Shown: positions 13,441 through 33,112 of the stretch, piece by piece
Layout of the letters: the number at the start of each line of letters is the position of its first letter
How positions within the stretch are numbered: position 1 is the first letter of the stretch
Assembly (NCBI GenBank): GCA_024279935.1
Contig: JAJRQZ010000149.1
Coordinates: 1 to 37,541, forward strand
DNA length: 37,541 nt
Direction of reading: 5' to 3'
DNA from: Bacteroidota bacterium
Lineage (GTDB): Bacteria; Bacteroidota; Bacteroidia; Bacteroidales; F082
Made by a program: the position numbers and the translations under genes
Notes under the pieces: generated by a model
Told to the model about the DNA's origin: nothing
The model's input: only the letters and a program-made list of their open reading frames with translations
Databases searched by the model: none

Positions 13441-14406
13441 TTAATTTCCCGAGTTTTTCTCCTTGATAATTTTTGCCGCAATGCTAATAGCAATCTCCGT
13501 TGGCGTACTGCTGTTGATATCCAGGCCTATAGGCGCATCTACCTTTTTCAGGGCTTCTTTGGCATATCCCTTTGCTAATAACTTCTTGAATATAACCGCT
13601 ACCTTAGTCTTGCTGCCCATCATCCCAAGATATCTAATGTCCTTGTTCAGCAGCTGTTTAAGAATCCTCATGTCGCTCTTATGCCCAAAACTCATGATTA
13701 CCACATAAACATTATCTCCCTCAGGTATATATTTTGCTGTTCTCTTATAATTGATAATCTTTTTCGAATTAGCGTAAACATTTTGTTTATAGGTAGTTAG
13801 ATACTTATCCCTATTATCGAACACACTGATGTGGAAACCCAGCCTCTTGAAAATCATACTCAGTTCAACACTCACATGTCCACCACCAAAGATGTATAAA
13901 AAGTCGTTGAAACCAAGTCGTTCTGTAAGGCTCCAGTGCTCCTTATCGCTGATAATGCTGCTAAAATGGCTGTTCGAACTAAGTTCGCGGTTGAACACAA
14001 AACCGTTTTCGTTAAATACAAGCCTCCCCGACTTCGATTTCCTGATTGATTCGCTCAGGGGCAGATAAGTGCTATCCAGCGTATAAAATGCAATCCATTG
14101 GGTTCCTGAGCACATCATACCCGAGGAATCTTCATCTTTCGATGAGTTGTGGATTTGTTTTTTCAGGAATATTCCAGAGGGCCGTTCAAATTGCTTTCTT
14201 GCCAATTCCACCATCTCAAATTCCATTTGCCCGCCCCCGACCGAACCCGAAAGTTTTCCGTCGCTTGACACAGCCATCTTAAAGCCCTTCTTGCCCGGGC
14301 TACTACCCTTATTATCAATAACCACCAGCAAAACAACCTTACAATCATTTTTTAGTCTCGAACTTATAAATTCCCAGATATTCATAGATTTCTTTAAAGT
14401 GTTCAT
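13441..14406 (-). CDS. xdhC: XdhC/CoxI-family molybdenum-enzyme maturation factor
   Basis: XdhC-type proteins bind molybdenum cofactor and promote its sulfuration and insertion into xanthine dehydrogenase-family enzymes. The 321-residue protein shows the N-terminal XdhC part: GSSPGK at 34-39, GSVGGGQMEFEM near 54-65 and GMMCSG at 96-101, where the Cys is the conserved one. The C-terminal Rossmann part has LYIFGGGHVSVEL at about 170-182 and YLGMMGSKTK further on. Its start codon overlaps the stop of the mocA-like gene (ATGA, 14403-14406), so both are translationally coupled and form a cofactor-maturation unit. The unit is divergent from the ygfK operon, whose XdhD-like enzyme, together with XdhAB further on, are its probable clients. 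The family also includes YqeB-type homologues in E. coli; which one this matches best is not resolved. Confidence 0.92.
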   Translation of the reverse strand: MNTLKKSMNIWEFISSRLKNDCKVVLLVVIDNKGSSPGKKGFKMAVSSDGKLSGSVGGGQMEFEMVELARKQFERPSGIFLKKQIHNSSKDEDSSGMMCSGTQWIAFYTLDSTYLPLSESIRKSKSGRLVFNENGFVFNRELSSNSHFSSIISDKEHWSLTERLGFNDFLYIFGGGHVSVELSMIFKRLGFHISVFDNRDKYLTTYKQNVYANSKKIINYKRTAKYIPEGDNVYVVIMSFGHKSDMRILKQLLNKDIRYLGMMGSKTKVAVIFKKLLAKGYAKEALKKVDAPIGLDINSSTPTEIAISIAAKIIKEKNSGN

Positions 14407-15008
14407 CCTGTTTTGGATTGGGCAAAGGTAAATTTTTCGTAATCATCAACGGTATTTATATTGATTAAAATATTGCTGTTCGACACTTCCAGGTCAACTC
14501 CCTTGTTCGAGGTTAATATAGTTTTGAGATTTATGGCTTCCACCTTGAGACTTAGTATTTCCTTAATGATTTTAGCTGACAATAAAACCGGATGGCCACC
14601 CCTCCCCTTATATAATATCCTTACATAATCATTATCCCTGATGCTCTCGTCCATCATCTTCAGGATTGCAGAATCAGCAAAGGGGTTATCAACATTATGA
14701 ATAAAAACACTATGGCAGTTCTTAAGTTTTTCTAAACCAAGCCGTATAGAATAAGGCCTTCCTCTGTCAACCTCATGGTTCTCTACCAGCTGAAGCCTGC
14801 GGTACTTGTTCTTCAAAAAAGATTTAAAAAAAGCAGCGCCACCTCTATTGGCAACAACAACTATCGAATTGCACTCCATCTTGTCATAGGCAATAATAAT
14901 GTTCTCAAGGAATGTCATCCCGTTGGCAAGCTCGAGCGCAAACTTGTTTTTGCCCATACGGGAAGAATGCCCGGCTGCCAGGATTACCGCTGAACTATTA
15001 TGTTTCAT
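14403..15008 (-). CDS. mocA: MocA/MobA-like molybdopterin nucleotidyltransferase
   Basis: The family transfers CMP (MocA) or GMP (MobA) onto molybdopterin; xanthine dehydrogenase-family enzymes usually use the cytosine dinucleotide form, so the MocA reaction is favoured by context. The 201-residue length fits MocA. The N-terminal nucleotide-binding signature LAAGHSSRMGKNK occupies residues 10-22, and the metal-binding region is HNVDNPF, where family members usually have a D-x-P motif. RILYKGRGGHPVLLS is the typical GHP loop. It is the first gene of a two-gene leftward unit with xdhC and lies 84 bases from the divergent ygfK operon. In E. coli, mocA (ygfJ) is also next to ygfK, which supports the assignment. 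Confidence 0.88.
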   Translation of the reverse strand: MKHNSSAVILAAGHSSRMGKNKFALELANGMTFLENIIIAYDKMECNSIVVVANRGGAAFFKSFLKNKYRRLQLVENHEVDRGRPYSIRLGLEKLKNCHSVFIHNVDNPFADSAILKMMDESIRDNDYVRILYKGRGGHPVLLSAKIIKEILSLKVEAINLKTILTSNKGVDLEVSNSNILININTVDDYEKFTFAQSKTG

Positions 15009-15027
15009 TAAATATCCTTTTCATAAA

Positions 15028-15035
15028 CAAATATA
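15028..15035 (-). promoter_or_regulatory. -7 box of the mocA-xdhC promoter
   Basis: TATATTTG on the minus strand matches TAnnTTTG and ends 19 bases upstream of the mocA start codon (15008). The -33 region is weak. It lies within the 84-base divergent spacer shared with ygfK. Confidence 0.4.
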
Positions 15036-15092: not shown

Positions 15093-18000
15093 ATGACCGA
15101 CAGTTTTTCGACAATGCCATTAGATAAAATATTGAAAATAATTTTATCCCAATATGACAATCAAAAAAGCATATTCGGCATTACGGAAACAATGTTTTTT
15201 AATCCTGTAAATAAAAGCAAATTAAGGAGCCAGCTCTACGGCAAGACTCTTGAAACTCCCATTGGCGTTGCTGCCGGACCGCATACACAATTGTCTCAAA
15301 ATATTGTAGCTGCCTGGCTTTGCGGCGCAAGGTTCATAGAATTAAAAACTGTCCAAACCCTTGACGAACTAGATGTCCCGAAACCTTGCATCGATATGCA
15401 AGACGAAGGATATAATTGCGAATGGTCGCAAGAACTTAAAATCCAGCAGTCTTTCGAACAATATCTCGATGCCTGGATAATAATTCATATACTTAAGGAT
15501 AAGTTCGCCTGGCACTCATCAGATATTGGTACAATTTTTAATATGAGCGTAGGCTACGATTTAAAAGGTATTCTGAGCGATAAGGTACAATGGTTCCTCA
15601 ATAAGATGAAAGATGCCTCAACTGAGCTCGACCAAAAAATCAGGAGTATTGAAAATATTTATCCGGATATAGGCAACATAAATATAAATCCCTGTATATC
15701 AGACAATATCACATTGTCCACAATGCATGGTTGCCCTGCGGACGAGATAGAGACAATTGGCTTATATTTAATTGAAGAGAGGAAACTACATACTTCTATC
15801 AAATTAAACCCAACTTTATTGGGTAAAGAAAAACTACTTGAAATAATATCGAACTCCGGTTTCGACACCCGGGTTCCTGACATTGCTTTCGATCATGACC
15901 TGAAATATGAGGATGCAACAAAGATAATAGAAAACCTTCAAAAAAAGGCTCAGATGTGCAGTCTTCAGTTTGCGGTTAAATTAACCAACACTTTGGAGAG
16001 CAGAAATCATAAGGACATTTTCAATACAAATGAAGAAATGATGTATATGAGCGGCAAAGCCTTGCATCCTGTTTCAATAAACCTTGCAGCCAAACTACAA
16101 AATGATTTCAAGGGCAAACTGAACATTTCTTTTTCCGGTGGTGTCGATGCTTTCAACATAAGCAAAACCTTAAATTGCGGACTGAGCCCTGTAACGGTCT
16201 GCAGCGACCTGCTGAAACCGGGAGGCTATGGAAGGCTAAAACAATATATTGACAATCTGAAAGACACATCAATCGTTAATAAAGCATCGGCTTTAATAAA
16301 ACTCAATGAATACGCTGCTGAGACACTGAAATCAAAACTATATAGAAAAACAGGATTCACTGAACCCAGCATCAAAACACAACGCAAATTAAGCACTTTC
16401 GATTGCATACACGCGCCTTGTATTGATACCTGCCCGACAAATCAAGGAATCCCTGATTATTTGTACTACAGTTCAAAGGGTGATTTCGGAAAAGCCGCAG
16501 AAGTAATTCTCAAAACAAATCCTTTCCCACATTCAACGGGCATGGTCTGCGACCATCTTTGCCAAACAAAATGTACGCGCATAAATTATGATTCAGCTGT
16601 TTTAATAAGGGAAGTAAAAAGATTTGTTGCTGAAAACTATATAATTGGTAATTACACAAAAAACACTAATGCAAATAAAACACCCCTTATTTCGATAATT
16701 GGTGCAGGACCTTCCGGTTTATCATGTGCATATTTTACGGCAAAAGCAGGTTTCAGGGTGCAGGTTTTTGAAAGCAAGGCAAAAGCCGGCGGAATGGTTC
16801 AAGGGGCAATCCCTGCATTCCGCTTAAGCGATGAGGCTATTAGTCAGGATATTAACGCTATCATTAAACTTGGAGTTGATATTTTTTATAATTCCGATGT
16901 CAACAATGAACTATTTAAAAAACTAAAACAAGAATCTGATTATATCTATATTGGCACAGGAGCGAAAAAATCAAAGATACCTGAATTACAGGGAATTGAC
17001 AGCAAGGGAGTACTTGACCCTCTAGATTTTTTGTTTAGAACAAAAGAAAACAAAAGAAGTGGTATTGGGAAAAACGTGTTAATTATCGGTGGCGGAAATA
17101 CTGCTATGGATGCTGCCCGCACGGCATACCGAATGATAGGCAAAAACGGGAAAGTTACTATTGTTTACCGAAGGACGATCAAGCAAATGCCGGCTGATGC
17201 AGGGGAAATCAAAGCCGTGCTTGACGAAGGCATTAAAATAACGGAACTAACAAGCCCCGTTGAAATTATATCAGAAAACGGAAAAATCAAATCGCTGCTG
17301 TGCCAAAAGATGAGACTAGGCGAAAAAGACAGCTCCGGGAGGGCTAAGCCCGTTGTAATACCGGATTCATATCTTGAGCTCTCAGTTGACACATTGATTC
17401 CTGCCATAGGACAGGAAATAGATATAGACTTTGCAACAAAGGAAGAACTTATTACAAAAAAAGGCAAATACGAAACCAAAATACCAAACATATTTATCGG
17501 TGGCGACGCCCTACGAGGTGCTTCTACGGCCATTAACGCAATTGGGGACGGCAGAAAGGCAGCAGAGGAGATAATCAAAAAAGCGGGAGCCGCTAACAAA
17601 CCCGAGCATGATCATTACGATAAAGAATTCGACGACAATCAACTTGCAATTGCCAAATCAACAAGAATACATTCACAAAACCCCAGGGAAACATCTCTTT
17701 CCGACAGAAAGAACTTCAACCTTACTAACTCAACTCTCTCAAAAGAAGAAATAATAACAGAAGCTTCACGATGTTTATTATGCGACGAAGTTTGTAATGT
17801 GTGCGCAACAGTTTGCCCGAATCTTGCGTTTCACTCCTTTAAGATTGAACCTCAATCATTTAAACTTCAAAAGATTAGTGAGAAAGGTATAGATGGAAGT
17901 TATACGCACATATTTAGCATAAAACAAAAACGTCAGATCATCCATCTTGCCGATTGGTGCAACGAATGTGGCAACTGCACTACTTTCTGCCCTACGGCAG

Positions 18001-18341
18001 ATGCCCCTTTTATAGAAAAGCCCCATCTTTATTTCAATAAAGAAGTTTTTGAAAAAGAAAAGGACGGCTTTTATTACGGGAAGAAAAACGGCATCGATTA
18101 TTTATTTGCATATTACGACAAGCAACTGCATAAATTAGTAAGGGATGATGACAACTTTATATTTGAGAACAAAAACGTATGGGTGAAGCTAAATACTAAA
18201 GATATGCATATAAAAGATTACAAATTGCTCACCGACAGCAAGTTTGAACAGTTTATGCAAATTCCGGCCGAAATGAGCATCCTTATGCTTGCTGCTGAAA
18301 GTTTTTATTGTAATTTGCAAGAAATCAAATCAAAGAACTAG
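15093..18341 (+). CDS. ygfK: YgfK-family iron-sulfur flavoprotein (putative selenate reductase family), purine catabolism
   Basis: The 1082-residue multidomain oxidoreductase has YgfK architecture. Residues ~1-400 resemble a dihydroorotate-dehydrogenase-like barrel (IGVAAGPHTQLSQNIV, STMHGCPADEIE, SFSGGVDAF). Residues ~437-500 form the GltD-type Fe-S region (CIHAPCIDTCPTNQ, then CDHLCQTKC). An FAD fold follows (SIIGAGPSGLSCAYF, ~535) with an inserted NAD(P)H fold (VLIIGGGNTAMDAARTAYR, ~663), ending in the FAD-contact FIGGDALRGASTAINAIGDG. The C-terminus holds ferredoxin-like cysteine clusters at ~893-905 (CLLCDEVCNVCATVCP) and ~954-964 (CNECGNCTTFCP). Such proteins move electrons between NAD(P)H and a partner or purine substrate; gut-anaerobe work has linked ygfK to urate breakdown. 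The exact reaction is not asserted. It is the first gene of the rightward purine operon, 12 bases before the next gene. The name 'selenate reductase' comes from homology only. Confidence 0.92.
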   Translation: MTDSFSTMPLDKILKIILSQYDNQKSIFGITETMFFNPVNKSKLRSQLYGKTLETPIGVAAGPHTQLSQNIVAAWLCGARFIELKTVQTLDELDVPKPCIDMQDEGYNCEWSQELKIQQSFEQYLDAWIIIHILKDKFAWHSSDIGTIFNMSVGYDLKGILSDKVQWFLNKMKDASTELDQKIRSIENIYPDIGNININPCISDNITLSTMHGCPADEIETIGLYLIEERKLHTSIKLNPTLLGKEKLLEIISNSGFDTRVPDIAFDHDLKYEDATKIIENLQKKAQMCSLQFAVKLTNTLESRNHKDIFNTNEEMMYMSGKALHPVSINLAAKLQNDFKGKLNISFSGGVDAFNISKTLNCGLSPVTVCSDLLKPGGYGRLKQYIDNLKDTSIVNKASALIKLNEYAAETLKSKLYRKTGFTEPSIKTQRKLSTFDCIHAPCIDTCPTNQGIPDYLYYSSKGDFGKAAEVILKTNPFPHSTGMVCDHLCQTKCTRINYDSAVLIREVKRFVAENYIIGNYTKNTNANKTPLISIIGAGPSGLSCAYFTAKAGFRVQVFESKAKAGGMVQGAIPAFRLSDEAISQDINAIIKLGVDIFYNSDVNNELFKKLKQESDYIYIGTGAKKSKIPELQGIDSKGVLDPLDFLFRTKENKRSGIGKNVLIIGGGNTAMDAARTAYRMIGKNGKVTIVYRRTIKQMPADAGEIKAVLDEGIKITELTSPVEIISENGKIKSLLCQKMRLGEKDSSGRAKPVVIPDSYLELSVDTLIPAIGQEIDIDFATKEELITKKGKYETKIPNIFIGGDALRGASTAINAIGDGRKAAEEIIKKAGAANKPEHDHYDKEFDDNQLAIAKSTRIHSQNPRETSLSDRKNFNLTNSTLSKEEIITEASRCLLCDEVCNVCATVCPNLAFHSFKIEPQSFKLQKISEKGIDGSYTHIFSIKQKRQIIHLADWCNECGNCTTFCPTADAPFIEKPHLYFNKEVFEKEKDGFYYGKKNGIDYLFAYYDKQLHKLVRDDDNFIFENKNVWVKLNTKDMHIKDYKLLTDSKFEQFMQIPAEMSILMLAAESFYCNLQEIKSKN

Positions 18342-18353
18342 TTATTAAAATAT

Positions 18354-19826
18354 ATGTACATGACAAAAGAACAAATTTTAGAGAACACCATAAAGCGCTG
18401 CCGCGAAAAAAAGATAATACTACCTACTTACAAGCAAATGCGCAATCCCGAATTAATCCCTGAGAAAATCAAGGGGAATTTAAAGTCAATAGGATTATGG
18501 GACCTAAACTCACTTAACCTATTCAGGATCAACTGGAAAAACGAGCCCATTAGCAATGGGGGCGGTTTTGGCAATGTGAATTATTTGGAATTACCACAGG
18601 AGCTTACAGGTGTAAAAGCAAGGATAATATTGTTAATAGGAAAATATTTCCCCACCGGGGCTCATAAGGTAGGCGCTACCTTCGGCCCCTTAGTCGAGAA
18701 ACTCATTAGCGGACGTTTCGACCCTACCCGTCAAAAGGCACTTTGGCCCTCAACCGGAAACTATTGCCGTGGAGGCGCTTATGATTCTCATCTCCTTGGT
18801 TGCGAGTCGATTGCAGTTTTACCACAAGGAATGTCGAAGGAACGTTTCGACTGGCTGCACAAGGTGGGCGCAGAGGTTTTTGCAACCCCCGGAACCGAAA
18901 GCAACGTAAAAGAGATTTACGACAAAGTGAAGGAATTAAAAGCCGAGAGAGGCGACAGCATCGTAAACCTCAACCAATTCGAGGAGATAGGCAATCCTTT
19001 ATGGCACTATGCAGTTACCGGCCCGGCAATGGAAGAGGTCTTCAATTCCATTAAGAAAGAAAACAGTAAATTCTCAGGTGTTTTCCTTACGCAGGGTTCT
19101 GCCGGAACCCTGGGCTGTACCGATTATCTAAGGGAAGTTTATCCAAATATGAAAGTGTGCGCGGGTGAGGCCCTGCAGTGCCCTACCCTTTTGGAAAACG
19201 GTTATGGCGAACATCGTATCGAAGGTATTGGCGACAAGCATGTTCCATGGATACATAACATTAAAAACATGGATATGGTCGCAGGCATCGACGACAAACC
19301 GAACATTCGCCTGATGCGCCTGTTCAACGAAAAAGCAGGAAAAGATTTCCTGGAAAAAGAATTAGGTATCGACAAGTTGATTATAGGACAATTGAACTTA
19401 TTGGGCATCTCGGGTATCGCCAACTTAATGGGTTCGATAAAACTGGCAAAATACTACGAAATGACAGAGGACGATATTGTATTCTCAGTTGCTACGGATT
19501 CAATGGAGATGTACCAGTCGCGGCTTGTAGAAGAGAATGATTCTCACGGAAACTTCAGTAATCGCGATGCTGCGGTATGTTTCGATGCCGACCTGCTCGG
19601 GCTAAACATCGACCATATTATAGAGATGAACTATTACGAAAAGAAACGGATGCACAATCTAAAATATTTTACATGGATAGAGCAACAGGGAAAGACCGTA
19701 GAAGAACTAAACGCACAATGGTACGATGACAACTATTGGTCGTCGCGTTATTCAAAAGTTGAAGAATGGGACAGGGAAATAATGGAATTCAACGAGAAAA
19801 CCGGAGTTATAAATGAGTATTTATAA
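18354..19826 (+). CDS. PLP-dependent fold-type II enzyme with TrpB-like GAHKVGA lysine motif, novel subfamily
   Basis: This 490-residue cytosolic enzyme belongs to the tryptophan-synthase-beta/cysteine-synthase fold. The likely PLP Schiff-base lysine is K105 in KYFPTGAHKVGATFGPL, similar to the TrpB context GAHK. The substrate-carboxylate (asparagine) loop is PSTGNYCRGGAY at 132-143, and a glycine-rich phosphate-loop-like stretch TQGSAGTLGCTDYL follows near 245-258. The long C-terminal region has VATDSMEMYQSRL and many aromatic/acidic residues. It is clearly not the usual YgeX/DpaL (about 400 residues, with a different lysine context). Located between ygfK and a second PLP enzyme in a purine-catabolic operon, it is a candidate replacement for diaminopropionate ammonia-lyase or a lyase acting on another amino-acid intermediate; that is inference. 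An alternative in-frame ATG lies at 18360. The gaps of 12 and 28 bases to its neighbours indicate one transcript. Confidence 0.8.
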   Translation: MYMTKEQILENTIKRCREKKIILPTYKQMRNPELIPEKIKGNLKSIGLWDLNSLNLFRINWKNEPISNGGGFGNVNYLELPQELTGVKARIILLIGKYFPTGAHKVGATFGPLVEKLISGRFDPTRQKALWPSTGNYCRGGAYDSHLLGCESIAVLPQGMSKERFDWLHKVGAEVFATPGTESNVKEIYDKVKELKAERGDSIVNLNQFEEIGNPLWHYAVTGPAMEEVFNSIKKENSKFSGVFLTQGSAGTLGCTDYLREVYPNMKVCAGEALQCPTLLENGYGEHRIEGIGDKHVPWIHNIKNMDMVAGIDDKPNIRLMRLFNEKAGKDFLEKELGIDKLIIGQLNLLGISGIANLMGSIKLAKYYEMTEDDIVFSVATDSMEMYQSRLVEENDSHGNFSNRDAAVCFDADLLGLNIDHIIEMNYYEKKRMHNLKYFTWIEQQGKTVEELNAQWYDDNYWSSRYSKVEEWDREIMEFNEKTGVINEYL

Positions 19827-19854: not shown

Positions 19855-21102
19855 ATGAGCACGAAATTTCACTACCAATGCACCAATTGCGGCAAGGAGC
19901 ACCCCGAAAACGAGGTGAGATACCTATGCCCTTCGTGCGAAGCTCACAACTCTAATCTTTCACCGCCTAAAGGCATCTTAAAAACGGTTTATAACTTTAA
20001 GGAGCTACTTAAAAACAATATGGGCTTCGATGATTTATCGCAATCTCATTTTATTGATTTACTACCAATCGACAGCATAAAAAGCCTCCCGCGACTAAGC
20101 GTTGGCAACACGCCCCTTTATCTAATCGATAAGATCGGCAATTCCGGTCTTGGGTTTAATCTATATTTAAAAGACGACTCTCAAAACCCGACCTATTCTT
20201 TTAAGGACAGGGCATCGGCATTGGTTTCCGCCTATGCCAAAGAAAAAGGGCTAGGCACTATAATCACTGCCTCCACCGGAAATGCCGGTTCATCGCTGGC
20301 CGGGATCTGCGCATCGCAAAACCAAAAGGCCATAATTCTTGTTCCTGCCAATGCCCCAGTCGCAAAGCTCACTCAAATAATAATGTACGGTGCAAATATT
20401 ATCCCGGTAAACGGAACTTATGACGACGCTTTTGACTTAAGCATTAAAGCCACCGAGGAATTTGGCTGGTTTAATCGCAATACTGCTTTCAACCCTCTAA
20501 CTATTGAAGGAAAAAAGACCGTTGCTTTTGAGCTCTTTGAACAAATGCATTATAAACTGCCCGACAGGATTTTTGTGCCGGTTGGCGATGGAGTCATTAT
20601 TTCAGGCGTATATAAAGGATTTGAGGACTTGCTAAAACTCAATATTATAGATAAAATCCCTTGTGTTGTTGCCGTTCAGGCGAAAGAAAGCGATAATCTC
20701 ATCAGAAATATCGAAAACGATGATTTTGAGATTCAAGCCAGCACAACTTTGGCCGATTCTATTTCAGTTGACATCCCCCGTAATTTTTATATGGCACAAG
20801 ATTTCATTTCAAAATACAAGGGCGAATATTTATGTGTCAGCGACGATGAAATACTGATAGCATCCTCAACACTCTCAAAAAACACCGGACTCTTTGCGGA
20901 ACCGGCAGCCGCAACGGCATTTGCAGGATTTTTGAATTATATGGCAAATAAAAAACTTGAAAACAATTCAGACAATATTGTCCTCCTTACAGGGAGTGGG
21001 CTGAAAGATTTAAGGAGCATCAACTCCCTTATAAAAATGCCAAATCCCATTGAGAACAATATGGAAAGTTTTATGAAGTTAATTTCAAAAACCGTATTAT
21101 AA
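19855..21102 (+). CDS. Threonine-synthase-like PLP enzyme with N-terminal zinc ribbon
   Basis: The 415-residue enzyme begins with a rubredoxin-like zinc ribbon: C9-x2-C12 and C25-x2-C28 (YQCTNCGKE...YLCPSC). A fold-type II PLP domain follows. The lysine is K117 in NPTYSFKDRAS, the asparagine loop is STGNAGSS near 140-147, and the late segment VLLTGSGLKDL completes the cofactor pocket. The whole resembles archaeal-type threonine synthase (ThrC), in which zinc-ribbon N-termini occur. Threonine synthase converts O-phosphohomoserine to threonine. Because thrA/thrB are not nearby and the gene is embedded between another PLP enzyme and an xdhD-like gene, a catabolic role such as deamination of 2,3-diaminopropionate or a related beta-substituted alanine is plausible. 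That role is inferred from context. It lies 28 bases after the previous gene and 63 bases before the xdhD-like ATG. Confidence 0.85.
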   Translation: MSTKFHYQCTNCGKEHPENEVRYLCPSCEAHNSNLSPPKGILKTVYNFKELLKNNMGFDDLSQSHFIDLLPIDSIKSLPRLSVGNTPLYLIDKIGNSGLGFNLYLKDDSQNPTYSFKDRASALVSAYAKEKGLGTIITASTGNAGSSLAGICASQNQKAIILVPANAPVAKLTQIIMYGANIIPVNGTYDDAFDLSIKATEEFGWFNRNTAFNPLTIEGKKTVAFELFEQMHYKLPDRIFVPVGDGVIISGVYKGFEDLLKLNIIDKIPCVVAVQAKESDNLIRNIENDDFEIQASTTLADSISVDIPRNFYMAQDFISKYKGEYLCVSDDEILIASSTLSKNTGLFAEPAAATAFAGFLNYMANKKLENNSDNIVLLTGSGLKDLRSINSLIKMPNPIENNMESFMKLISKTVL

Positions 21103-21136: not shown

Positions 21137-21144
21137 TATATTTG
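21137..21144 (+). promoter_or_regulatory. Possible internal -7 box upstream of the xdhD-like gene
   Basis: TATATTTG matches TAnnTTTG and ends 21 bases before the ATG at 21166. No good -33 TTG is visible at the usual distance. It overlaps a TTG codon at 21142 that an automated caller could take as a start. It suggests that the second half of the operon may have its own promoter. Confidence 0.35.
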
Positions 21145-21165
21145 GCTTATAGAAATAAACTACAG

Positions 21166-25032: not shown

Positions 25033-25653
25033 ATGGACGCTCAAATACTTCAAAATATAGGATATGTGGCCTCGGGGCTAATAGCATTCTCGATGACCAT
25101 GAACTCGATAGTGAAATTCAGGTGGATAAACCTGCTTGGAGCCAGTTCGTTCGCCATCTACGGTTTTTTAATTTCCGCCTACCCTGTAATGCTCTTGAAC
25201 GGTTTTATCGTTATTGTTGATATTTATTATTTGATTAAAATCTATAATAAATCACAACTATTTGATACACTGCAGATTAAAGCCAACAATCAATATCTCC
25301 TTAAATTTCTGGAATATAACAAGAAGGACATCCAAAAATACTTTCCCGGATTTGAATACAAAGCCGAAAAAAACACCATTAGTTTTTTTGTTTTGAGGAA
25401 TATGGCTGTTACCGGCATCTTCCTTGCTCACAGGGAAGACAATAATATTCTAAAAGTTGGCCTCGACTATGTTATTCCGGAATACAGGGATTTCAAGAAC
25501 GGCAAATATGTTTATCATCATTTAAACAAATATTTCAAGAAAGTTGGTTTTGAAAGAATTATCACTACGGCCGGAACCCCTGTCCACAAAAAATATTTAA
25601 AAAAACTTGGCTTCAAGGAAACCAAAGAAGGATTATTTGAAAAGTCAATATGA
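25033..25653 (+). CDS. Membrane protein with YgjV-like N-terminus and GNAT-like C-terminus
   Basis: The 206-residue protein has about three hydrophobic segments in its first 72 residues: ~7-27 (IGYVASGLIAFSMTMNSI), ~30-50 (WINLLGASSFAIYGFLISAY) and ~52-71 (VMLLNGFIVIVDIYYLIKIY). These resemble the YgjV-type inner-membrane family. The C-terminal ~110 residues look like an acetyltransferase (GNAT) fold: FFVLRNMAVTGIFLAHRE, then LDYVIPEYRDFKNGKYVYHHL, and a final FERIITTAGTPVHKKYLKKLGF, the usual GNAT ending. The fold calls rest on pattern recognition. It sits between ssnA and hyuA and its stop overlaps the hyuA ATG by four bases (ATGA), so the two are translationally coupled. It might modify or help move an intermediate, but no role in purine breakdown is known to me. 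Confidence 0.7.
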   Translation: MDAQILQNIGYVASGLIAFSMTMNSIVKFRWINLLGASSFAIYGFLISAYPVMLLNGFIVIVDIYYLIKIYNKSQLFDTLQIKANNQYLLKFLEYNKKDIQKYFPGFEYKAEKNTISFFVLRNMAVTGIFLAHREDNNILKVGLDYVIPEYRDFKNGKYVYHHLNKYFKKVGFERIITTAGTPVHKKYLKKLGFKETKEGLFEKSI

Positions 25654-26978
25654 GCAAAATGAAGTTGTTAATCAAGAATGGGCATATAATAAATGAAGAT
25701 GAAAGTTTTCAGGCAGATATTTTATGCGAGGGAGGAAAAATAACCCAAATATCTGAACACATTGACCAACAATTACTTGACTGCGACTTTATTGATGCAA
25801 GCGGAAAATATTTATTGCCGGGCGGTATCGACCCACATGTGCATTTTCATTTACCAACCAAGGCAGGTTTCTCATCCGATGATTTCCTGAGCGGAAGCAA
25901 GGCCGCTTTGTTTGGTGGCACAACAAGCATTATTGATTTCGTTACGCCAAAAAAAGGCCAAAAACTTCCCGACGCATTAAAAGAACGCCTAATTGAGGCA
26001 AAAGACTGTAGATGTAATTATTCTTTTCACATAAGTCCCATCGAATGGAGAGATTCCTTAAAAGAAGAAATAAGATATTGCATCAATAAAGGTTACAATA
26101 CTTTTAAAGTATATATGGCCTATAAGGACAGCATCGGGCTTGATGATTCAAGTTTGAAAAAAGTAATGAAAGTAGTTGCTGCTGAAGGTGGTACCATAAC
26201 TGTTCATTGCGAAATGGGCGATAAAATAGACGGGCTAAGGAATAAATTCACCGCGGAAAACAAGACAGGTGTTGAATACCATCCGCTTTCGCGACCCAAC
26301 GAGACTGAATCCAGGGCAGTTAAAAAAGCACTTGAGTTTGCAAAGGAAACATCTTGCCCGATTTATATAGTACACGTCTCCACAAAAGAATCGCTTAGGC
26401 ACATTAAGCAGGCGAAAAAACTTGGACAGGAGGTTTATGCCGAAACCTGCCCTCAGTATCTTTTACTGAACGACACGAAATATAAAGGGGATTTTTATGA
26501 TACTGCTAAATATGTAATGAGCCCGCCATTAAGGAAAGAGGATGACAACCTAGCACTATGGGAAGCCCTGGGGGATGGAACAATCGACACTATTGGTACG
26601 GATCATTGTCCTTTTTCACTATCACAAAAAGAATATGGCATCGATGATTTCCGAAAAATCCCGAATGGTGCCGGAGGAGTGGAGCACAGGCATAAACTAC
26701 TTTATACTTATGGTGTGCTTGCAAATAAAATAACTATAAATCAATTTGTTGCGCTAACATCTGCTAATGCGGCAAAAGTTTTCGGCATGTTTCCCGACAA
26801 GGGAATAATAAAAGTTGGCGCCGATGCTGACATCATAATCTGGGACCCCCAACCAAGTTCCACTATTTTAAGCAATAATCATTATTCGACTTGCGATTTG
26901 GATATATATGACGGATTTGCTGTAAAAGGAAATGCCGATTTAAGCATATTGGGGGGTGAATTGAAAAAACGCCCATAA
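25650..26978 (+). CDS. hyuA: Dihydropyrimidinase/D-hydantoinase-family amidohydrolase (HyuA)
   Basis: The enzyme opens cyclic ureide (hydantoin or dihydropyrimidine-type) rings to N-carbamoyl amino acids. The 442-residue protein has all metal ligands: HVHFH at 63-67, the carboxylated lysine in NTFKVYMAYK (K153), VHCEMG (H186), VHVSTKESL (H242) and GTDHCPFS (D318). E. coli HyuA is slightly longer and lies in the equivalent ygeW-ygeX-ygeY-hyuA group. In the inferred pathway it opens a ring derived from the imidazole or pyrimidine part of the purine, giving a ureido product for YgeY and YgeW. It ends 11 bases from the stop of the convergent ygeW gene, and I see no terminator hairpin between them. 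Confidence 0.95.
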   Translation: MSKMKLLIKNGHIINEDESFQADILCEGGKITQISEHIDQQLLDCDFIDASGKYLLPGGIDPHVHFHLPTKAGFSSDDFLSGSKAALFGGTTSIIDFVTPKKGQKLPDALKERLIEAKDCRCNYSFHISPIEWRDSLKEEIRYCINKGYNTFKVYMAYKDSIGLDDSSLKKVMKVVAAEGGTITVHCEMGDKIDGLRNKFTAENKTGVEYHPLSRPNETESRAVKKALEFAKETSCPIYIVHVSTKESLRHIKQAKKLGQEVYAETCPQYLLLNDTKYKGDFYDTAKYVMSPPLRKEDDNLALWEALGDGTIDTIGTDHCPFSLSQKEYGIDDFRKIPNGAGGVEHRHKLLYTYGVLANKITINQFVALTSANAAKVFGMFPDKGIIKVGADADIIIWDPQPSSTILSNNHYSTCDLDIYDGFAVKGNADLSILGGELKKRP

Positions 26979-26989: not shown

Positions 26990-28174
26990 TTACCACACTC
27001 TTTTAGAGCTCCCTTTAATTATTTTTTCGATAGTTTCAGCCGGTTTCTCAAAGCTGTTTGCAAGCATCATGGCAGCAATGATATATGGTTTATACGAAGC
27101 TTCTTTATAGGTTTCTATTCTAAACTTCTCGAAAACCTCAGCCGATACTTCACCGTTTTCACAGGAAACGCCCGAGATATCTGCTGGTAGGCAATGCATA
27201 TAAAGGGCATTCCCGTTTTTTGTCGTTTTCATTTTTTCGGCATTATATTCCCAATTCCTGAACTTATAATTCTCTTTCAGTGCCTCCAGTTCAAGGTCGG
27301 CCAGATGCTTTTTGTCCTTATTTTTCAGAAATTCCGTTCTTTCCTGCATTATATGAAAAGGCGCCCAGCTTTTGGGATAAACAATATCGGCATCGGCAAC
27401 AGCTTCTTCCATACTGTTGCTTACCTTAAAACTGCCACCGCTCAATTCGGCGTTTTTGCCAGCCAGGCCAACAATCTCCGGTATCAAATTATACGCCTCA
27501 GGATGAGCCAGTTCCACAGTCATTCCAAAGCGTGTAAGTAAAGCGATAATTCCTTGAGGCACCGAAAGCGGCTTGCCATAACTTGGTGAATAAGCCCATG
27601 TCATAGCTATCTTTTTGCCTTTTAGCTCATCCAGGGAACCAAAATATTTTTTAAGGTGCAAGAGGTCGGCCATTGACTGGGTAGGATGGTCCATATCGCA
27701 TTGCAGGTTTATTATTCCAGGCCTTGTTGACAAAACACTATTTTCATAACCATCGTCGAGGGCAGCGGCAACCTCGCGCATGTATTTGTTTCCTTCACCT
27801 AGATACATATCATCGCGTATGCCTATAAAATCACTTAGGAAGGAAATCATATTGGCAGTTTCCCTAACTGTTTCCCCGTGAGCAATTTGCGATTTTGTCT
27901 CGTCCATATCCTGCACTTCGAGTCCTAGCATATTGGCAGCAGAAGCATAAGAAAAGCGCGTCCGTGTGGAATTGTCCCTAAAAATAGAAACGGCTAGCCC
28001 TGAGTCGAAAAGACGAGGCGAAATGTTTTGCTCCCTAATCAGCTTCAACAAGGATGCTATTTGAAGTATGGCTCTCAGATCATTTTCGTTTTTTTCCCAT
28101 GTCAAAAGGAAATCTTTTTTATAAAGGTCTGTTTTTATTTCTGATAACGTTTTAATTCTTTGTTGTAGATTCAT
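26990..28174 (-). CDS. ygeW: YgeW-family knotted carbamoyltransferase
   Basis: YgeW belongs to the knotted transcarbamylases; E. coli YgeW has been described as a catabolic type. The 394-residue protein has the carbamoyl-phosphate loop FRDNSTRTRFSYASA (STRTR at 69-73), the knot-associated region near MTWAYSPSYGKPLSVPQG, HPTQSMADLLH for carbamoyl phosphate and HCLPADISG for the second substrate. In this context it likely works in the degradative direction, phosphorolysing a ureido compound to carbamoyl phosphate plus an amine, which can be used for ATP. No carbamate kinase gene is present in the window to finish that step. It is the last gene of the leftward operon, 63 bases after ygeY. Confidence 0.95.
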   Translation of the reverse strand: MNLQQRIKTLSEIKTDLYKKDFLLTWEKNENDLRAILQIASLLKLIREQNISPRLFDSGLAVSIFRDNSTRTRFSYASAANMLGLEVQDMDETKSQIAHGETVRETANMISFLSDFIGIRDDMYLGEGNKYMREVAAALDDGYENSVLSTRPGIINLQCDMDHPTQSMADLLHLKKYFGSLDELKGKKIAMTWAYSPSYGKPLSVPQGIIALLTRFGMTVELAHPEAYNLIPEIVGLAGKNAELSGGSFKVSNSMEEAVADADIVYPKSWAPFHIMQERTEFLKNKDKKHLADLELEALKENYKFRNWEYNAEKMKTTKNGNALYMHCLPADISGVSCENGEVSAEVFEKFRIETYKEASYKPYIIAAMMLANSFEKPAETIEKIIKGSSKRVW

Positions 28175-28237: not shown

Positions 28238-29425
28238 TCAAAGCTCATAGGCAAAGGCTGCATAAAAGGCCGAGGCAGCCACCAAATCATCAATAGCAAC
28301 CTTCTCGTTCGGGGCATGTGCAAGCACTTCGTTACCCGGGCCGAAACCTATTGTTGGAATACCATAGATACCGTTTATCACAACTCCATTTGTCGAAAAA
28401 GTCCATTTGTCGATCAGTGGTTTTTTTGAGAAAAGTTTTTCAAATGCTTTAACACCGGCCTGCACTATTTTGTGGCTTCCAGGTATTTTCCATGTAGGAT
28501 AGTATTTTTCCATACCATATTTAATCCCCGTATAAGCTTCTTCTTCATAGTTAAGAACCTCCACTTCGGCATCCATTCCCTCTATCAGGCTCTCTATTTC
28601 TTTTATAGCCGATTCCTTGGTTTCGCCCCATGTCAACCTCCTGTCGAGATGCAGACGGGCAAAATCGGAAACTGCACAAAGCGAGGGGCTCCCGGAAACA
28701 AATTCAGAAATTGTTATGCTACCTTGTCCCAGAAACTCGTCATAAGCAAGCCTTTTGTTAAGCTTTTCGATTTCCAGTGCCACCCTGGAAGCCATATAGA
28801 TAGCATTTTTACCCCTCTCGGGAGCAGAGCCGTGGGAAGCGAGACCGTAAAAACTGACATGAATTTCCATCCTTCCCCTATGTCCGCGATATATATTTAG
28901 GTTTGTCGGTGCAGTACTGATGGCAAAGTCGGGCTTAATACCATCCTCCTCGACGATATATTTCCAACAAAGCCCGTCGCAGTCCTCTTCCATCACGCTT
29001 CCGACAAAATAAACCTTAAGATCCTTATCAAAGCCCAATTCCTTCAAAATCCTGGCTGAGGTAACAAAGGCAGCAGGGCCTCCTTCCTGGTCAACGGTAC
29101 CCCTGCCGTGAACAAAGCCATCCTTTATTTCCCCGCCGAGAGGATCAAAATCCCAATTTCCGGCATTACCCATATCAACCGTGTCCATGTGCCCGTCGAT
29201 AGCAAGAACCTTTTTGCCATTCCCGATCCTGCCTATCACATTTCCGAGTCCGTCAATTGTAACTTCGTCAACACCAGCCTCCAACAATTGTCTTTTAAGT
29301 TCCAATTGCACTTCCTTCTCTCCCTTGCTAAGCGATTTTATCTGAACCAGCTTCGACAGATTATCTGCTGTATAATCCCTATACTTTTCTGACAAGATGT
29401 TTATTTTCGAATAGATATCACTCAT
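28238..29425 (-). CDS. ygeY: YgeY-family M20 metallohydrolase
   Basis: M20 enzymes cleave peptide or amide bonds using two zinc ions. The 395-residue protein has DGHMDTVDMG (H79, D81), HGRGTVDQEGGPAAFV with the bridging Asp at 112, MEEDCDGLCW with the acid/base pair at 146-147, and a late HAPNEKV supplying a His ligand. E. coli YgeY lies in the same cluster as YgeW, YgeX and HyuA; the likely job is hydrolysing an N-carbamoyl or related amide intermediate of purine breakdown. The precise substrate cannot be read from sequence. It lies 14 bases after xdhB and 63 bases before ygeW in the leftward operon. Confidence 0.93.
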   Translation of the reverse strand: MSDIYSKINILSEKYRDYTADNLSKLVQIKSLSKGEKEVQLELKRQLLEAGVDEVTIDGLGNVIGRIGNGKKVLAIDGHMDTVDMGNAGNWDFDPLGGEIKDGFVHGRGTVDQEGGPAAFVTSARILKELGFDKDLKVYFVGSVMEEDCDGLCWKYIVEEDGIKPDFAISTAPTNLNIYRGHRGRMEIHVSFYGLASHGSAPERGKNAIYMASRVALEIEKLNKRLAYDEFLGQGSITISEFVSGSPSLCAVSDFARLHLDRRLTWGETKESAIKEIESLIEGMDAEVEVLNYEEEAYTGIKYGMEKYYPTWKIPGSHKIVQAGVKAFEKLFSKKPLIDKWTFSTNGVVINGIYGIPTIGFGPGNEVLAHAPNEKVAIDDLVAASAFYAAFAYEL

Positions 29426-29439: not shown

Positions 29440-31707
29440 TTATTTTTTATTACGTACAGCATATAAAGCCAGCAAGGTTTTTTCCGCTGTAAAAGGTGCA
29501 TCGAAGTCGGGTTTCGAGGCCGGGTTAAAGCTACGAACGGCATCCCTAAGGGCAAAATAAGCCCCTATGCCATACATCAACGGTGGCTCGCCAACAGCCT
29601 TCGACTTCAAGATTGCCAATTCCGGCCCTTCTGTCTCCAATTCAAGGATATCGACCTTTTCAGGAGCAGAAAAAATATCCGGCACCTTATATTTTGATAA
29701 GCTGTCGGCCAAAAGTCTTCCTCTGTCATCATATTTCAACTCCTCCATTGTCATCCAACCAATACCTTGCATCAAAGCACCCTCCACCTGTCCTTTGTCG
29801 ATCCCGATATTCATGCTGTTTCCGAAGTCGTGTACTATTTTAACATCTTCTACTTTATATACGCCTGAAACACAATCTAGTACAACAGAAGTATAAGCGG
29901 TTCCGTAAACATGATAAGCGAAAGGATGCCCCCTTTCGGTATTTTTATCAAAATGGATTAGCGGTGTGGCATAATGACCAATTTCGGAAAGTTTTACCCT
30001 TTTTAGGAAAGCGGTCTCGACCAGTTTTTCCCAACTTAAGCCTCTGTTTTTTCTTATCGTGGATATTTCCCCGTCAACAAAAGCCACTTCACCGGCATCA
30101 GCCTCAAGAACCTCAGCTGCAACTTCTTCGAGACGCTTGCGAATCTCCCGACAGGCAATCAGCACGGCCTTGCCGTTCAAATCGGCACCGGTGCTAGCTG
30201 CCGTGGGCGATGTGTTTGCGACACGGCTTGTATTTGTGGATTCTATTTTTATTCGCTGTATGTCAATCGAGAAAGCCTTGGCCGCAAGCTGCATTAGCTT
30301 GGTATTTACCCCCTGCCCCATTTCGACTGCCCCCGTGCTAAACCCTACACTACCGTCCTGATAAACATGAACCATTGCCCTAGCCTGGGTCATAGGGGTT
30401 TTGGTAAAAGAAATACCGAAACAAACCGGCATCAATGAAAACCCTTTCTTGATAAATACACTATCGGAATTAAATTTCCGAATCCGCTGTATTTCAGATA
30501 TTATATCGAACTTTTCATAAATCTTATCCCAACTTTTGATAGCATTATTACTATCGCAAGACTGGCCATAATGAAAACGATCGTTTTTACGGATAAGGTT
30601 CTTTTCTTGAATCAGACTCCTTTCTACTCCAATCATTTCGGCGGACAAAGCAATGGCAGACTCAATGACAAACATAGCCTGTGGCCCTCCAAATCCCCTA
30701 AAAGCAGTAAAAGGATGAAGGTTTGTTTTGCAGGAATATGCTGTAGCCTCGGTATTCGGAATAAAATATGAGTTGGCTACATGAAACAAGGTTCTTTCTA
30801 AAATAGCCGGGCTCAAATCGGCTACGGCCCCGCCATTTTGATAATAAGTTACTTTATATGCTTTTATTTTCAGGTTTTTATCCAGACCTATCTTAAAATC
30901 AGAACTATAAGGATGCCTCTTCCCGCTCGCAATAATATCATCAGCGCGATCTAGCACAAGTTTCACTGGTTTGCGAAGTTTCCTTGCTGCCAGAGCGGCC
31001 ATTACAGCCCATGCTGTTGCCTGATCCTCCTTTCCTCCGAAAGCACCGCCCAAGCGGGTTACATCGACTTCCACATCGTTCATCGACAGCCCTAAAACCT
31101 GCGCTACTGTCTTTTGAACCGCAGTAGGGCCCTGAGTTGATGAATATATTTTAATATTATCCCGTTCCAGCTGGATGGCATAAGAAGCATGAGTCTCAAT
31201 ATAGAGGTGTTCCTGGCCTCCGCTGTCTGCTTTACCGGAGAAAACATATTCACAATCGGCAAAAGCCTTATCAACATCACCGCTTTTAAAAGTTCGGGCA
31301 GGAAAAAGCAAACTTCCTTTTTCCTTTGCAGTTCGCGGATCCGTTATTATTTCCAGCTCCTGATATTCAATATCAATAAGATGCAAGGCTTCCCTTGCCT
31401 CATAATGACTGTTTGCCACGATAATGGCTATTGGCTGACCAATAAAGTGAACTTTATCTTCTGCCAACAAGACCTCGTCATTGATGATACCGCCAATTTG
31501 GTTTTCTCCCGGAATATCGCCGGCGGTCAAAACATCAATGACGCCTTTCGAATTTTTGGCTCTTGAATAATCGATACTAAGGATGCTGGCATGGGCAACA
31601 TCAGCCAGGAACGGAACAGCATGCAGAGTTCCTCCAAGTTCGCGGATATCGTCAACGTAAATAGACTCCCCCCTTAAATGACCGCTAGAATCAATATTCT
31701 TCATCAT
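29440..31707 (-). CDS. xdhB: Xanthine dehydrogenase, molybdopterin-binding large subunit
   Basis: The 755-residue subunit matches the Rhodobacter-type XdhB. All active-site residues of true xanthine dehydrogenases are visible: the Gln in STQGPTAVQ, the Glu in GGAFGGKEDQ (bovine E802 equivalent), the Arg in TAFRGFGGPQ (R880 equivalent) and the catalytic Glu in KAVGEPPLMYG (E1261 equivalent). NTSPTAASTGADLNG is also diagnostic of the xanthine dehydrogenase clade. It should oxidise hypoxanthine/xanthine or reduce urate, with electrons passed through XdhA to NAD. It starts inside the end of xdhA (17-base overlap), so the two subunits are coupled. It differs from the XdhD-like enzyme in lacking an N-terminal Fe-S part, giving two molybdenum hydroxylases in one locus. 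Confidence 0.95.
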   Translation of the reverse strand: MMKNIDSSGHLRGESIYVDDIRELGGTLHAVPFLADVAHASILSIDYSRAKNSKGVIDVLTAGDIPGENQIGGIINDEVLLAEDKVHFIGQPIAIIVANSHYEAREALHLIDIEYQELEIITDPRTAKEKGSLLFPARTFKSGDVDKAFADCEYVFSGKADSGGQEHLYIETHASYAIQLERDNIKIYSSTQGPTAVQKTVAQVLGLSMNDVEVDVTRLGGAFGGKEDQATAWAVMAALAARKLRKPVKLVLDRADDIIASGKRHPYSSDFKIGLDKNLKIKAYKVTYYQNGGAVADLSPAILERTLFHVANSYFIPNTEATAYSCKTNLHPFTAFRGFGGPQAMFVIESAIALSAEMIGVERSLIQEKNLIRKNDRFHYGQSCDSNNAIKSWDKIYEKFDIISEIQRIRKFNSDSVFIKKGFSLMPVCFGISFTKTPMTQARAMVHVYQDGSVGFSTGAVEMGQGVNTKLMQLAAKAFSIDIQRIKIESTNTSRVANTSPTAASTGADLNGKAVLIACREIRKRLEEVAAEVLEADAGEVAFVDGEISTIRKNRGLSWEKLVETAFLKRVKLSEIGHYATPLIHFDKNTERGHPFAYHVYGTAYTSVVLDCVSGVYKVEDVKIVHDFGNSMNIGIDKGQVEGALMQGIGWMTMEELKYDDRGRLLADSLSKYKVPDIFSAPEKVDILELETEGPELAILKSKAVGEPPLMYGIGAYFALRDAVRSFNPASKPDFDAPFTAEKTLLALYAVRNKK

Positions 31708-33112
31708 ACAAACTATTAGTGGTCATTATGTTAAGAATGTCTTTTTGTTCGAATTCATCAGGGAACAACTTCAAAAAATGCTGAAGAAACAACTGACGAA
31801 GCAATAAACTTTTATATCTGCTGCTGCCACGAATATCACTTATGGGCAATATCTCTGATTTAATGACAGGAAGTACGGATTCCAGCGTCGGGATGCTCAA
31901 TTCCTTTCCTTTGAGGAAACCGGAGCTTTGCGACATGAGCTTTGGAACGGCAGCAACACCTCCTGCCGAAAAATAAACTTCCTTTATCAATTTATTATCA
32001 ACAGTAATCCCAAGGCTTGTGTTTACGGAAGCTATATCCAGATATGTACGTTTACTGACTTTCTCGAAATTAAAGTTCATGTCCATATCCGTATTTACTA
32101 AAATATATTTTATTATCTCATCCGGCTTCAAGCTTGTTTCTTTATAACTGACAAAAAAATCCTTTAAGGCAAGTTGTCTTTGTTCGGAATCTTTGTTTTC
32201 CAGAACCAATCTGGAATCAAATGCCAGCAGCATTATACTAATATCACCTATTGGAGAGGCATTAACTATATTTCCGGCAAGAGTTCCCATATTCCTTATT
32301 TGTTCCGAAGCAATTAATGGCAGGAAGTCAGACAGTTGAGGGAGGTGCTCCATTATCAATCCGTTCCGGAAGAAATCGTTAACTGTAATTCCTGCACCTA
32401 TTTTTATTGTGCCATCTTCCTCGGCAACCTTATCACTAACGAAATCCCCGGCACGGGCAATCTTTTCATGGCGTAAACTGTCAGCTTGTTGTACCATCAA
32501 GTCTGTTCCGCCTGATATCAAAATCCCGTCCATGTTGGTTTTGATGGTTTCTATCTCCGCAAGCCGCTTTTCGATTCCCGAGAAATAATAAGGCAACCAT
32601 CCTTTTTTAATCATTTGTTCAATCTCGCTTCCAAAAAGGAGGACTTGTTTTAATTCATCTACTTTGACTGCTGCCTTCTCTATGGATTTATAACCTGTAC
32701 AACGGCATATATTCCCGCCCAACGAATCAACAGCGGCACTATTTTGAGACGACAGAAGGTGAGCCGTTAGCGCAACCACAAAACCGGGAGTACAAAAGCC
32801 ACATTGAGTTGCTGAGTTTTCCGCCATGGCATTTTGAACCGGTGATAAGCCATCAAGATTAAGACCCTCGACACTAACTATATGTTTGCCATCGGCATTT
32901 ACCAAGGGAGTAAGGCAGGAAACAATTGATTTATAAGTCAATATACCGTTAACCAAACTACCTTCCAATACCGTGCACGCTCCGCAATCACCCTCGCGGC
33001 AGCCAATTTTTGTAGCTGTCAGATGCATTTCAGTCCGGATAAAATCGAGCAAAGAACTTCCTTCTTCCTTTTCTGTCTTTATGGTTTGATTATTTAATAT
33101 GAATTTTATCAC
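31691..33112 (-). CDS. xdhA: Xanthine dehydrogenase, 2Fe-2S and FAD small subunit
   Basis: The 473-residue subunit fuses a two-cluster 2Fe-2S part to a FAD domain, the Rhodobacter XdhA layout. Cluster ligands are CREGDCGACTVLEG and a later SIVSC, then TQCGFCTPGF and NICRCTGYK. The flavin part has GGTDLMVQQAD, IRNMGTLAGNIVNASPIGDI and KRTYLDIASVNTSLGI, followed by a CO-dehydrogenase flavoprotein C-terminal domain. It passes electrons from XdhB molybdopterin to NAD. The start is a GTG at 33112 giving MIKFILNNQ; no upstream in-frame alternative is needed. It heads the leftward operon and overlaps xdhB by 17 bases. A promoter-like -7 box ends only four bases upstream of the GTG, so the transcript may be nearly leaderless. 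Confidence 0.95.
   Translation of the reverse strand: MIKFILNNQTIKTEKEEGSSLLDFIRTEMHLTATKIGCREGDCGACTVLEGSLVNGILTYKSIVSCLTPLVNADGKHIVSVEGLNLDGLSPVQNAMAENSATQCGFCTPGFVVALTAHLLSSQNSAAVDSLGGNICRCTGYKSIEKAAVKVDELKQVLLFGSEIEQMIKKGWLPYYFSGIEKRLAEIETIKTNMDGILISGGTDLMVQQADSLRHEKIARAGDFVSDKVAEEDGTIKIGAGITVNDFFRNGLIMEHLPQLSDFLPLIASEQIRNMGTLAGNIVNASPIGDISIMLLAFDSRLVLENKDSEQRQLALKDFFVSYKETSLKPDEIIKYILVNTDMDMNFNFEKVSKRTYLDIASVNTSLGITVDNKLIKEVYFSAGGVAAVPKLMSQSSGFLKGKELSIPTLESVLPVIKSEILPISDIRGSSRYKSLLLRQLFLQHFLKLFPDEFEQKDILNIMTTNSLYDEEY

Follow-up and report, generated by a model that had tools for sequence, protein, structure and literature searches.

The reductive uric acid pathway has been described in E. 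coli, C. difficile and C. sporogenes (PMC12507026, PMC12990295). According to passages of Li et al. (2025; PMC12507026), XdhD converts urate to yanthine, reduction by YgfK is coupled to SsnA, HyuA gives 2,3-diureidopropionate, YgeW and YgeY lead to 2,3-diaminopropionate (DAP), and YgeX, cited there as equally active on both DAP isomers, converts DAP to pyruvate. In a commentary by Percudani (PMC12990295) the first step in C. sporogenes is assigned to XdhAC. Here, a 37,541-nucleotide stretch of DNA from an uncultured Bacteroidota bacterium (JAJRQZ010000149.1; "the window") was analysed, in which 13 contiguous genes at positions 13441–33112 form an island resembling this pathway. In place of YgeX, also known as DpaL, the island contains two other pyridoxal phosphate (PLP)-dependent enzymes, PLP-A (18354–19826, plus strand) and PLP-B (19855–21102, plus strand). 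On balance, the island probably works like the reductive urate pathway with a non-orthologous ending, in which PLP-A and PLP-B replace DpaL. The window corresponds to contig C157 of a genome of 3.73 Mb in 181 contigs, 96.5% complete and 2.1% contaminated.

By homology, the window would cover all steps to DAP, with SsnA scoring below its family cut-off and carbamate kinase encoded on another contig. From their likeness to enzymes tested by others, the second xanthine dehydrogenase (XDH) would convert xanthine to urate and a fused molybdenum enzyme of the TIGR03311 family would convert urate to yanthine. YgfK would carry out the reduction step, SsnA and HyuA would open the ring to give 2,3-diureidopropionate, and YgeW and YgeY, with the carbamate kinase encoded elsewhere, would remove both ureido groups to leave DAP. 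The remaining conversion of DAP to pyruvate and ammonia, the task of YgeX/DpaL in E. coli, is proposed here for PLP-A and PLP-B jointly. As YgeX/DpaL was found neither in the window nor in its genome, the island is classed as a pathway-like variant and not as a full member.

DpaL was sought with two family models (scores throughout are bits versus the curated family cut-off). In the window's genome the best match to TIGR03528 was PLP-B itself, at 46.5 versus 532, with PLP-A at 19.5; NF006058 gave no match at E ≤ 1e-50, and the other five PALP-domain proteins of the genome showed no match to a DpaL model at E ≤ 1e-40. The two models and the PALP inventory rule out a DpaL hiding under another name, and a gene missed merely through gaps in one metagenome-assembled genome (MAG) is unlikely, given that 68 ygfK genomes contain PLP-B without DpaL. 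DpaL, noted as absent from the island in the preliminary description, was thus not found in the rest of this 96.5% complete genome either.

The distribution of the two PLP genes was determined in an even sample of 295 genomes across the order, which overlaps a set of 100 relatives. At thresholds of E ≤ 1e-180 for ygfK, 1e-60 for PLP-A, 1e-80 for PLP-B and 1e-50 for DpaL (NF006058), ygfK was found in 79 genomes (69 over cut-off), PLP-A in 76, PLP-B in 73 and DpaL in nine, all nine over cut-off. PLP-B accompanied ygfK in 69 genomes, with ygfK alone in 10, PLP-B alone in four and neither in 212 (Fisher p = 4.9e-51, relatedness ignored); the corresponding counts for PLP-A were 73, six, three and 213. 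Conservation of the PLP genes with ygfK, on which the preliminary description had made its proposal depend, is therefore seen for both. The 79 ygfK genomes comprised 68 with PLP-B and no DpaL, one with both (G148), four with DpaL and no PLP-B (G085, G132, G187 and G303) and six with neither, an exclusion with a Fisher p of 6.5e-4, uncorrected for relatedness. Both PLP genes were present in 68 genomes and shared a contig in 43, lying at most 4 kb apart in 41 of these. Among the 100 relatives, ygfK was over its cut-off in 37, PLP-A matched in 39 (E ≤ 1e-20) and PLP-B in 35 (E ≤ 1e-40), with a DpaL-family match in two (TIGR03528, E ≤ 1e-30), none above the model's cut-off. PLP-A was recognised in 26 of 40 loci from relatives; the next recognised same-strand gene was PLP-B in 20, and an xdhD-type gene came next in 19 of those 20. 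The PLP-A/PLP-B/xdhD block is kept even where ygfK lies elsewhere, far away on the same contig in G006 and on another contig in G083. An arrangement conserved in this way is not a mere product of chance.

Exchange with DpaL was observed within the same gene order. The order in G303 is PLP-A, DpaL, xdhD, with DpaL starting 2 bases after PLP-A, in the slot of PLP-B, and in G085 it is ygfK, PLP-A, DpaL (NF006058, 425 versus 276), PLP-B not being found in that genome. G132 has ygeY, ygeW, hyuA, the island's gene of no named family, ssnA, xdhD, ygfK and mocA in the order and orientation of the window, with 26 bases between the end of ygfK and the start of xdhD and no PLP gene in the operon; its DpaL, on another contig, is 46% identical to E. 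coli YgeX and groups with it in a tree. The DpaLs of genomes or loci with PLP-A (G303, G187, G085 and the SAR324 locus L127) form one clade with an ultrafast bootstrap of 98 and have Phe168 and Tyr192 in common, where the five other DpaLs compared have Tyr and Trp; this comparison comprised nine sequences, and in G187 PLP-A and DpaL are on different contigs. Read most naturally, these cases suggest that a DpaL on its own would do the work of both PLP genes, with the other DpaL type replacing PLP-B only, which fits the separate clade and distinct residues of the PLP-A-associated DpaLs. Taken together, co-occurrence, slot exchange and one natural loss support replacement at the level of the genes.

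The PLP-A/PLP-B pair also occurs in other phyla. A scan of genome contigs with the PLP-A alignment matched 593 stretches, 588 of which encode relatives; counts refer to the best 80 of the 588, and many stretches are short. PLP-B was recognised in 47 of these 80 loci and DpaL in one, with at least one urate-cluster gene in 38 of the 47 and at least two in 22. A single Cloacimonadota stretch (L096) contains hyuA, ssnA, ygfK, ygeY, ygeW, PLP-A, PLP-B and xdh genes, and the PLP pair shares a stretch with ygfK and/or ssnA in Spirochaetota (L158) and Chloroflexota (L125). A further Chloroflexota locus (L120) encodes SsnA (533 versus 444) and a hydantoinase (535 versus 393). Halanaerobium kushneri (L135) has a YgeY-like protein, a carbamoyltransferase and a xanthine permease (448 versus 414), and Acetomicrobium (L129) a YgeY over cut-off, a dihydroorotate-dehydrogenase-like protein and xdh genes, with no ygfK or ssnA in either stretch. 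By score, the carbamoyltransferase in L120 and that in L135 resemble ornithine carbamoyltransferase more closely than YgeW. A carbamate kinase gene often lies nearby: one cluster of neighbouring genes, two members of which were identified, is represented in 20 of the best 80 loci. The variant ending that the preliminary description placed in Bacteroidota is thus supported by the missing DpaL, the co-occurrence, the G303 slot and G132, but its restriction to that phylum was too narrow; the ending appears to be a new variant of the known reductive urate pathway extending to Cloacimonadota, Spirochaetota and Chloroflexota.

Some PLP loci have other surroundings. In two Burkholderiaceae MAGs (L119 and L150) the PLP-B/PLP-A pair immediately adjoins OmcA/MtrC decahaem cytochromes, and no urate gene was recognised there; the two PLP genes can thus also form a module on their own. 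In an Anaerolineae locus (L118, 14345–18867) genes for a proton-antiporter-like membrane protein and a SelB elongation factor (352 versus 242) come after the PLP-A/PLP-B block, a possible selenium link.

PLP-A is a 490-residue fold-type-II enzyme resembling CysK and cystathionine β-synthase (CBS), with a PALP domain (56.5 bits) and no NCBIfam family over cut-off (TIGR01139, cysteine synthase, 90.9 versus 350.95). The nearest folds to its AF2 model (pLDDT 92) are β-cyanoalanine synthase, O-acetylserine sulfhydrylase and CBS, with Z 37–35, r.m.s. deviation 1.9–3.1, 288–326 aligned positions and 20–28% identity among the top 17 matches. PLP-B is likewise a PALP-domain, fold-type-II protein, with no significant similarity to PLP-A in pairwise BLASTP. 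Asp294 of PLP-A, in the motif HRIEGIGDKH, is invariant in 46 of 46 PLP-As, as is the DKH following GIG, and aligns with the Asp of HRIEGISD(EF) in Fn1055, described in part of PMC9865163 as a cysteine hydroxyl-lyase in which water replaces the cysteine thiol to give serine. By counting in the alignment, the Fn1055 residue is Asp232 when the numbering is shifted by four residues from the crystallised chain (340) to the protein (336). A passage of PMC12940168 lists Asp232 among the key catalytic residues and as critical for L-cysteine specificity, and the title of a Fn1055 D232N structure names an α-aminoacrylate intermediate.

PLP-B (415 residues; PALP, 222 bits) carries an N-terminal cysteine motif and is a putative DAP- or serine-cleaving lyase. 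The nearest fold to its AF2 model (pLDDT 90) is threonine synthase, ThrC, with Z 43–38, r.m.s. deviation 2.0–2.4 and 307–372 aligned positions among the top nine matches. Compared with the four solved ThrCs that matched at E ≤ 1e-40, all 38 PLP-Bs have Thr, Met or Leu instead of the Arg of NPxRxEGQKT and Asp instead of the Asn of PVGNAG. We take these two ThrC positions to bind the substrate phosphate; an acidic group in place of the phosphate site would suit an amine-bearing substrate. For neither PLP-A nor PLP-B did the Foldseek and VIA matches shown include a diaminopropionate lyase, which excludes nothing.

The kinship of PLP-A with the β-replacement enzymes CysK and CBS, together with the Fn1055-type aspartate, leads to the proposal that water would replace the β-amino group of DAP in PLP-A, giving serine and ammonia, and that PLP-B would convert serine to pyruvate and ammonia by elimination. 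The sum of the two steps (DAP + H2O → serine + NH3; serine → pyruvate + NH3) would equal the overall reaction of DpaL. This is the chemistry we prefer, although we hold it tentatively and with more doubt than belief. We know of no named family with diaminopropionate hydroxyl-lyase activity. It is somewhat more doubtful still that a new two-step route exists in the wider sense, whereby PLP-A would be that hydroxyl-lyase, its partner (PLP-B or the PLP-A-paired DpaL clade) would convert serine to pyruvate, and the pathway would be an ancient character of free-living anaerobes across many phyla rather than an adaptation to the gut.

As a second choice, which appears rather unlikely, PLP-B would act as a lyase on L-DAP and PLP-A would handle or epimerise D-DAP, an isomer that a solo DpaL deals with unaided. 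The positions of Asp120 and Asp189 in E. coli DpaL are occupied in PLP-B by Thr and Asn, and, given the roles that we assume for these aspartates in DpaL, loss of Asp120 from the partner had seemed to force PLP-A to be the D-isomer enzyme. That argument is weakened, and the division by isomer spoken against, by the PLP-A-paired DpaLs, which retain both Asp120 and Asp189.

Several other explanations were weighed against joint replacement of DpaL. PLP-B alone might be a DAP ammonia-lyase, with PLP-A on a side branch converting DAP (or albizziin) to another amino acid, for example serine or cysteine, for biosynthesis. The DpaL adjoining a retained PLP-A in G303 and G085 would agree with such a branch, as would the resemblance of PLP-A to β-replacement enzymes, but PLP-A is also missing from G132, where DpaL clusters with E. 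coli YgeX, the annotation of the E. coli K-12 cluster shows no gene resembling PLP-A, and PLP-A tracks ygfK as tightly as PLP-B does (73/79 versus 69/79). We regard the side branch as unlikely.

Alternatively, the two genes might encode a cysteine synthase and a threonine synthase that are in the operon incidentally, with DAP cleaved by another dehydratase of the genome. PLP-B does exceed the cut-off of the TIGR00260 threonine synthase model (183 versus 167), PF14821, the N-terminal domain of E. coli-type ThrC, is absent from the window's genome, and that genome encodes two further serine/threonine-dehydratase-like proteins. Unlike a housekeeping gene, PLP-B is present in 69/79 ygfK genomes versus 4/216 others; in addition, a separate cysK-like gene lies elsewhere in the window's genome, the two conserved ThrC residues are altered in every PLP-B compared, and DpaL occupies the same slot in G303, all of which makes this explanation very unlikely. 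Identification of PLP-B as an ordinary housekeeping ThrC is similarly disfavoured. The other ThrC-like gene of the genome, on contig C69, belongs to TIGR03844 ("cysteate synthase") and has no thr gene among the neighbours checked. On contig C166 of the window's genome (L168), a serine/threonine-dehydratase-like gene overlaps an ornithine-cyclodeaminase-like gene. Finally, it is quite improbable that PLP-A serves the molybdenum hydroxylases, for example in cofactor sulfur or selenium supply, with only PLP-B belonging to the ending, for although PLP-A of G099 adjoins xdh, xdhC and 8-oxoguanine deaminase in a genome lacking the pathway and one xdh gene cluster is near PLP-A in 18 of the best 80 loci, G132 retains an xdhD-type enzyme without PLP-A, and the two Burkholderiaceae loci have the pair beside multihaem cytochromes with no xdh recognised.

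A number of observations weigh against replacement of DpaL by the two PLP enzymes. In six of the 79 genomes with ygfK, neither PLP-B nor DpaL was seen, at completeness values of 70% (G120), 96% (G125), 77% (G143), 78% (G188), 88% (G249) and 82% (G283), and G188 contains the cluster with no PLP gene. G148 has PLP-B and DpaL but no PLP-A. G099 has PLP-A and no match to ygfK, PLP-B or DpaL at the thresholds used. Nine of the 47 PLP-B-bearing loci are without a urate marker, and 33 of the best 80 PLP-A loci are without PLP-B, 13 of them with urate-cluster genes, many of these stretches being short; three (L100, L102 and L143) have PLP-A with hyuA, ssnA and xdh but no PLP-B in the stretch. The window's genome yielded no further canonical threonine synthase, which leaves threonine synthesis as a possible role of PLP-B. 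The score of the putative SsnA is below its cut-off, and the passage of PMC12940168 on Fn1055 does not state that Asp232 activates water.

At the G099 locus (contig C119, L064), PLP-A appears to share an operon with xdh subunit genes, xdhC and 8-oxoguanine deaminase, and it may have a purine-linked role outside the urate pathway.

The island's genes were checked as open reading frames at their coordinates and scored against NCBIfam. The genes listed in the preliminary description are real, although they number 13 and not 12; YgfK, HyuA, YgeW and YgeY are over their cut-offs, whereas the SsnA-like protein, the proteins resembling XdhC and MocA, and the two second-XDH subunits all score below cut-off, the best family of the latter two being TIGR02965 and TIGR02963. 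Strand and spacing suggest three apparent units. The first, on the minus strand, comprises an xdhC-like molybdenum hydroxylase maturation factor (13441–14406; NF045664, 208 versus 350, and TIGR02964, 132 versus 162, both below cut-off; Pfam XdhC_C over, at 122 bits) and a MocA/YgfJ-like nucleotidyltransferase (14403–15008; TIGR03310, 117 versus 186, below cut-off; Pfam NTP_transf_3 over, at 85 bits). The second, on the plus strand, extends from ygfK to hyuA. It starts with ygfK (15093–18341; TIGR03315, 925 versus 835; 37% identity to E. coli YgfK), the proposed reductase of yanthine (2,8-dioxopurine), followed after 12 bases by PLP-A and, after a further 28, by PLP-B. The proposed urate reductase, a fused FeS and Mo hydroxylase of the XdhAC/xdhD type (21142–23733), begins 39 bases later at its listed start and overlaps an ssnA-like amidohydrolase gene (23717–24988), for which SsnA is the best family (NF005540, 374 versus 444), with 32% identity to E. 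coli SsnA over 395 columns. A conserved gene of no named family (25033–25653) starts 44 bases after ssnA and overlaps hyuA (25650–26978; TIGR02033, 495 versus 393), the hydantoinase-type ring-opening enzyme. The third unit, on the minus strand, consists of ygeW (26990–28174; carbamoyltransferase, NF005538, 666 versus 453), ygeY (28238–29425; M20 hydrolase, NF009555, 499 versus 321) and the second molybdenum hydroxylase, with an XdhB-type Mo subunit (29440–31707; TIGR02965, 803 versus 849.5) and an XdhA-type FeS and FAD subunit (31691–33112; TIGR02963, 328 versus 467).

The gene called xdhD in the preliminary description does encode a molybdenum hydroxylase, but one belonging to TIGR03311 (868 versus 830), with only 204 versus 1102 for TIGR03313, presumably the family of E. 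coli XdhD. Glu606 of E. coli XdhD was unusable as a marker of urate reduction, as the stretch that holds it is absent from the window protein. The carbamate kinase predicted to lie outside the island was found on contig C59 of the same genome (TIGR00746, 366 versus 358). The protein of no named family has a possible membrane N terminus and a GNAT-like C terminus, with sub-threshold Pfam matches only (GNAT, E 0.029; MtN3, E 0.034; YgjV, E 0.047); its gene is kept between ssnA and hyuA in relatives and is retained in G132, a genome with neither of the PLP genes. Outside the island, a 5S rRNA truncated by the window start (1–87; 56 bits) is the sole Rfam match in the window at gathering thresholds, with none inside the island, and a PurM-like protein (35627–36793) scores far under the PurM cut-off (98 versus 236).

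A search of the literature turned up no account of the PLP-A/PLP-B ending, which does not establish its absence from print; passages of PMC8289736 and PMC8259983 contain nothing on it, and in part of a 2008 study of selenium-dependent molybdenum hydroxylases (PMC2276186) the marker table lists ygeX, ygeY and ygfK and no such PLP genes are named. A survey of urate-degrading bacteria described in part of PMC12542679 has ygeX as one of six markers and could miss clusters with this ending, and counting any PF00291 gene near ssnA as YgeX, as in a passage of PMC12507026, would give them a wrong label. Bacteroidota is not among the phyla named in the relevant parts of these two papers ("Bacteroid" has 0 occurrences in PMC12507026), in contrast to the presence of ygfK in 79 of 295 genomes of this Bacteroidota order. 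The commentary PMC12990295 (2025) did not decide between an ancient origin of the pathway and a recent adaptation to the gut. The genomes with PLP-A loci appear to point to sediments, lakes and brines, and a distinct ending in several phyla of such habitats makes that question testable. The proposed ending also gives two PLP families a function that can be assayed directly; of these, PLP-A is unnamed in NCBIfam and PLP-B is over cut-off only for threonine synthase models.

In comparison with known proteins, PLP-A shares the core fold of Fn1055, CysK and CBS and carries the aspartate of Fn1055 within an HRIEG(I)xD motif, but differs in its extra terminal parts and in the invariant DKH. PLP-B has the fold of ThrC and 32–35% identity to bacterial ThrCs among the top alignments, but its distribution tracks ygfK and it departs from ThrC at two positions that the four solved ThrC sequences share. 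With DpaL it has in common the PALP domain and the position of the PLP lysine (E. coli Lys77 aligns with the Lys of SFKDR), at only 28% identity over 127 columns and far below the family cut-off. With the reductive uric acid pathway, as set out in parts of PMC12507026 and PMC12990295, the island shares YgfK, HyuA, YgeW, YgeY and a separate XDH, together with a putative urate-reductase-type molybdenum enzyme, an SsnA-like protein and the same inferred intermediates up to DAP. It differs in having no YgfM-like gene and an extra conserved gene of no named family, and, at the end of the pathway, in having two other PLP enzymes instead of YgeX/DpaL.

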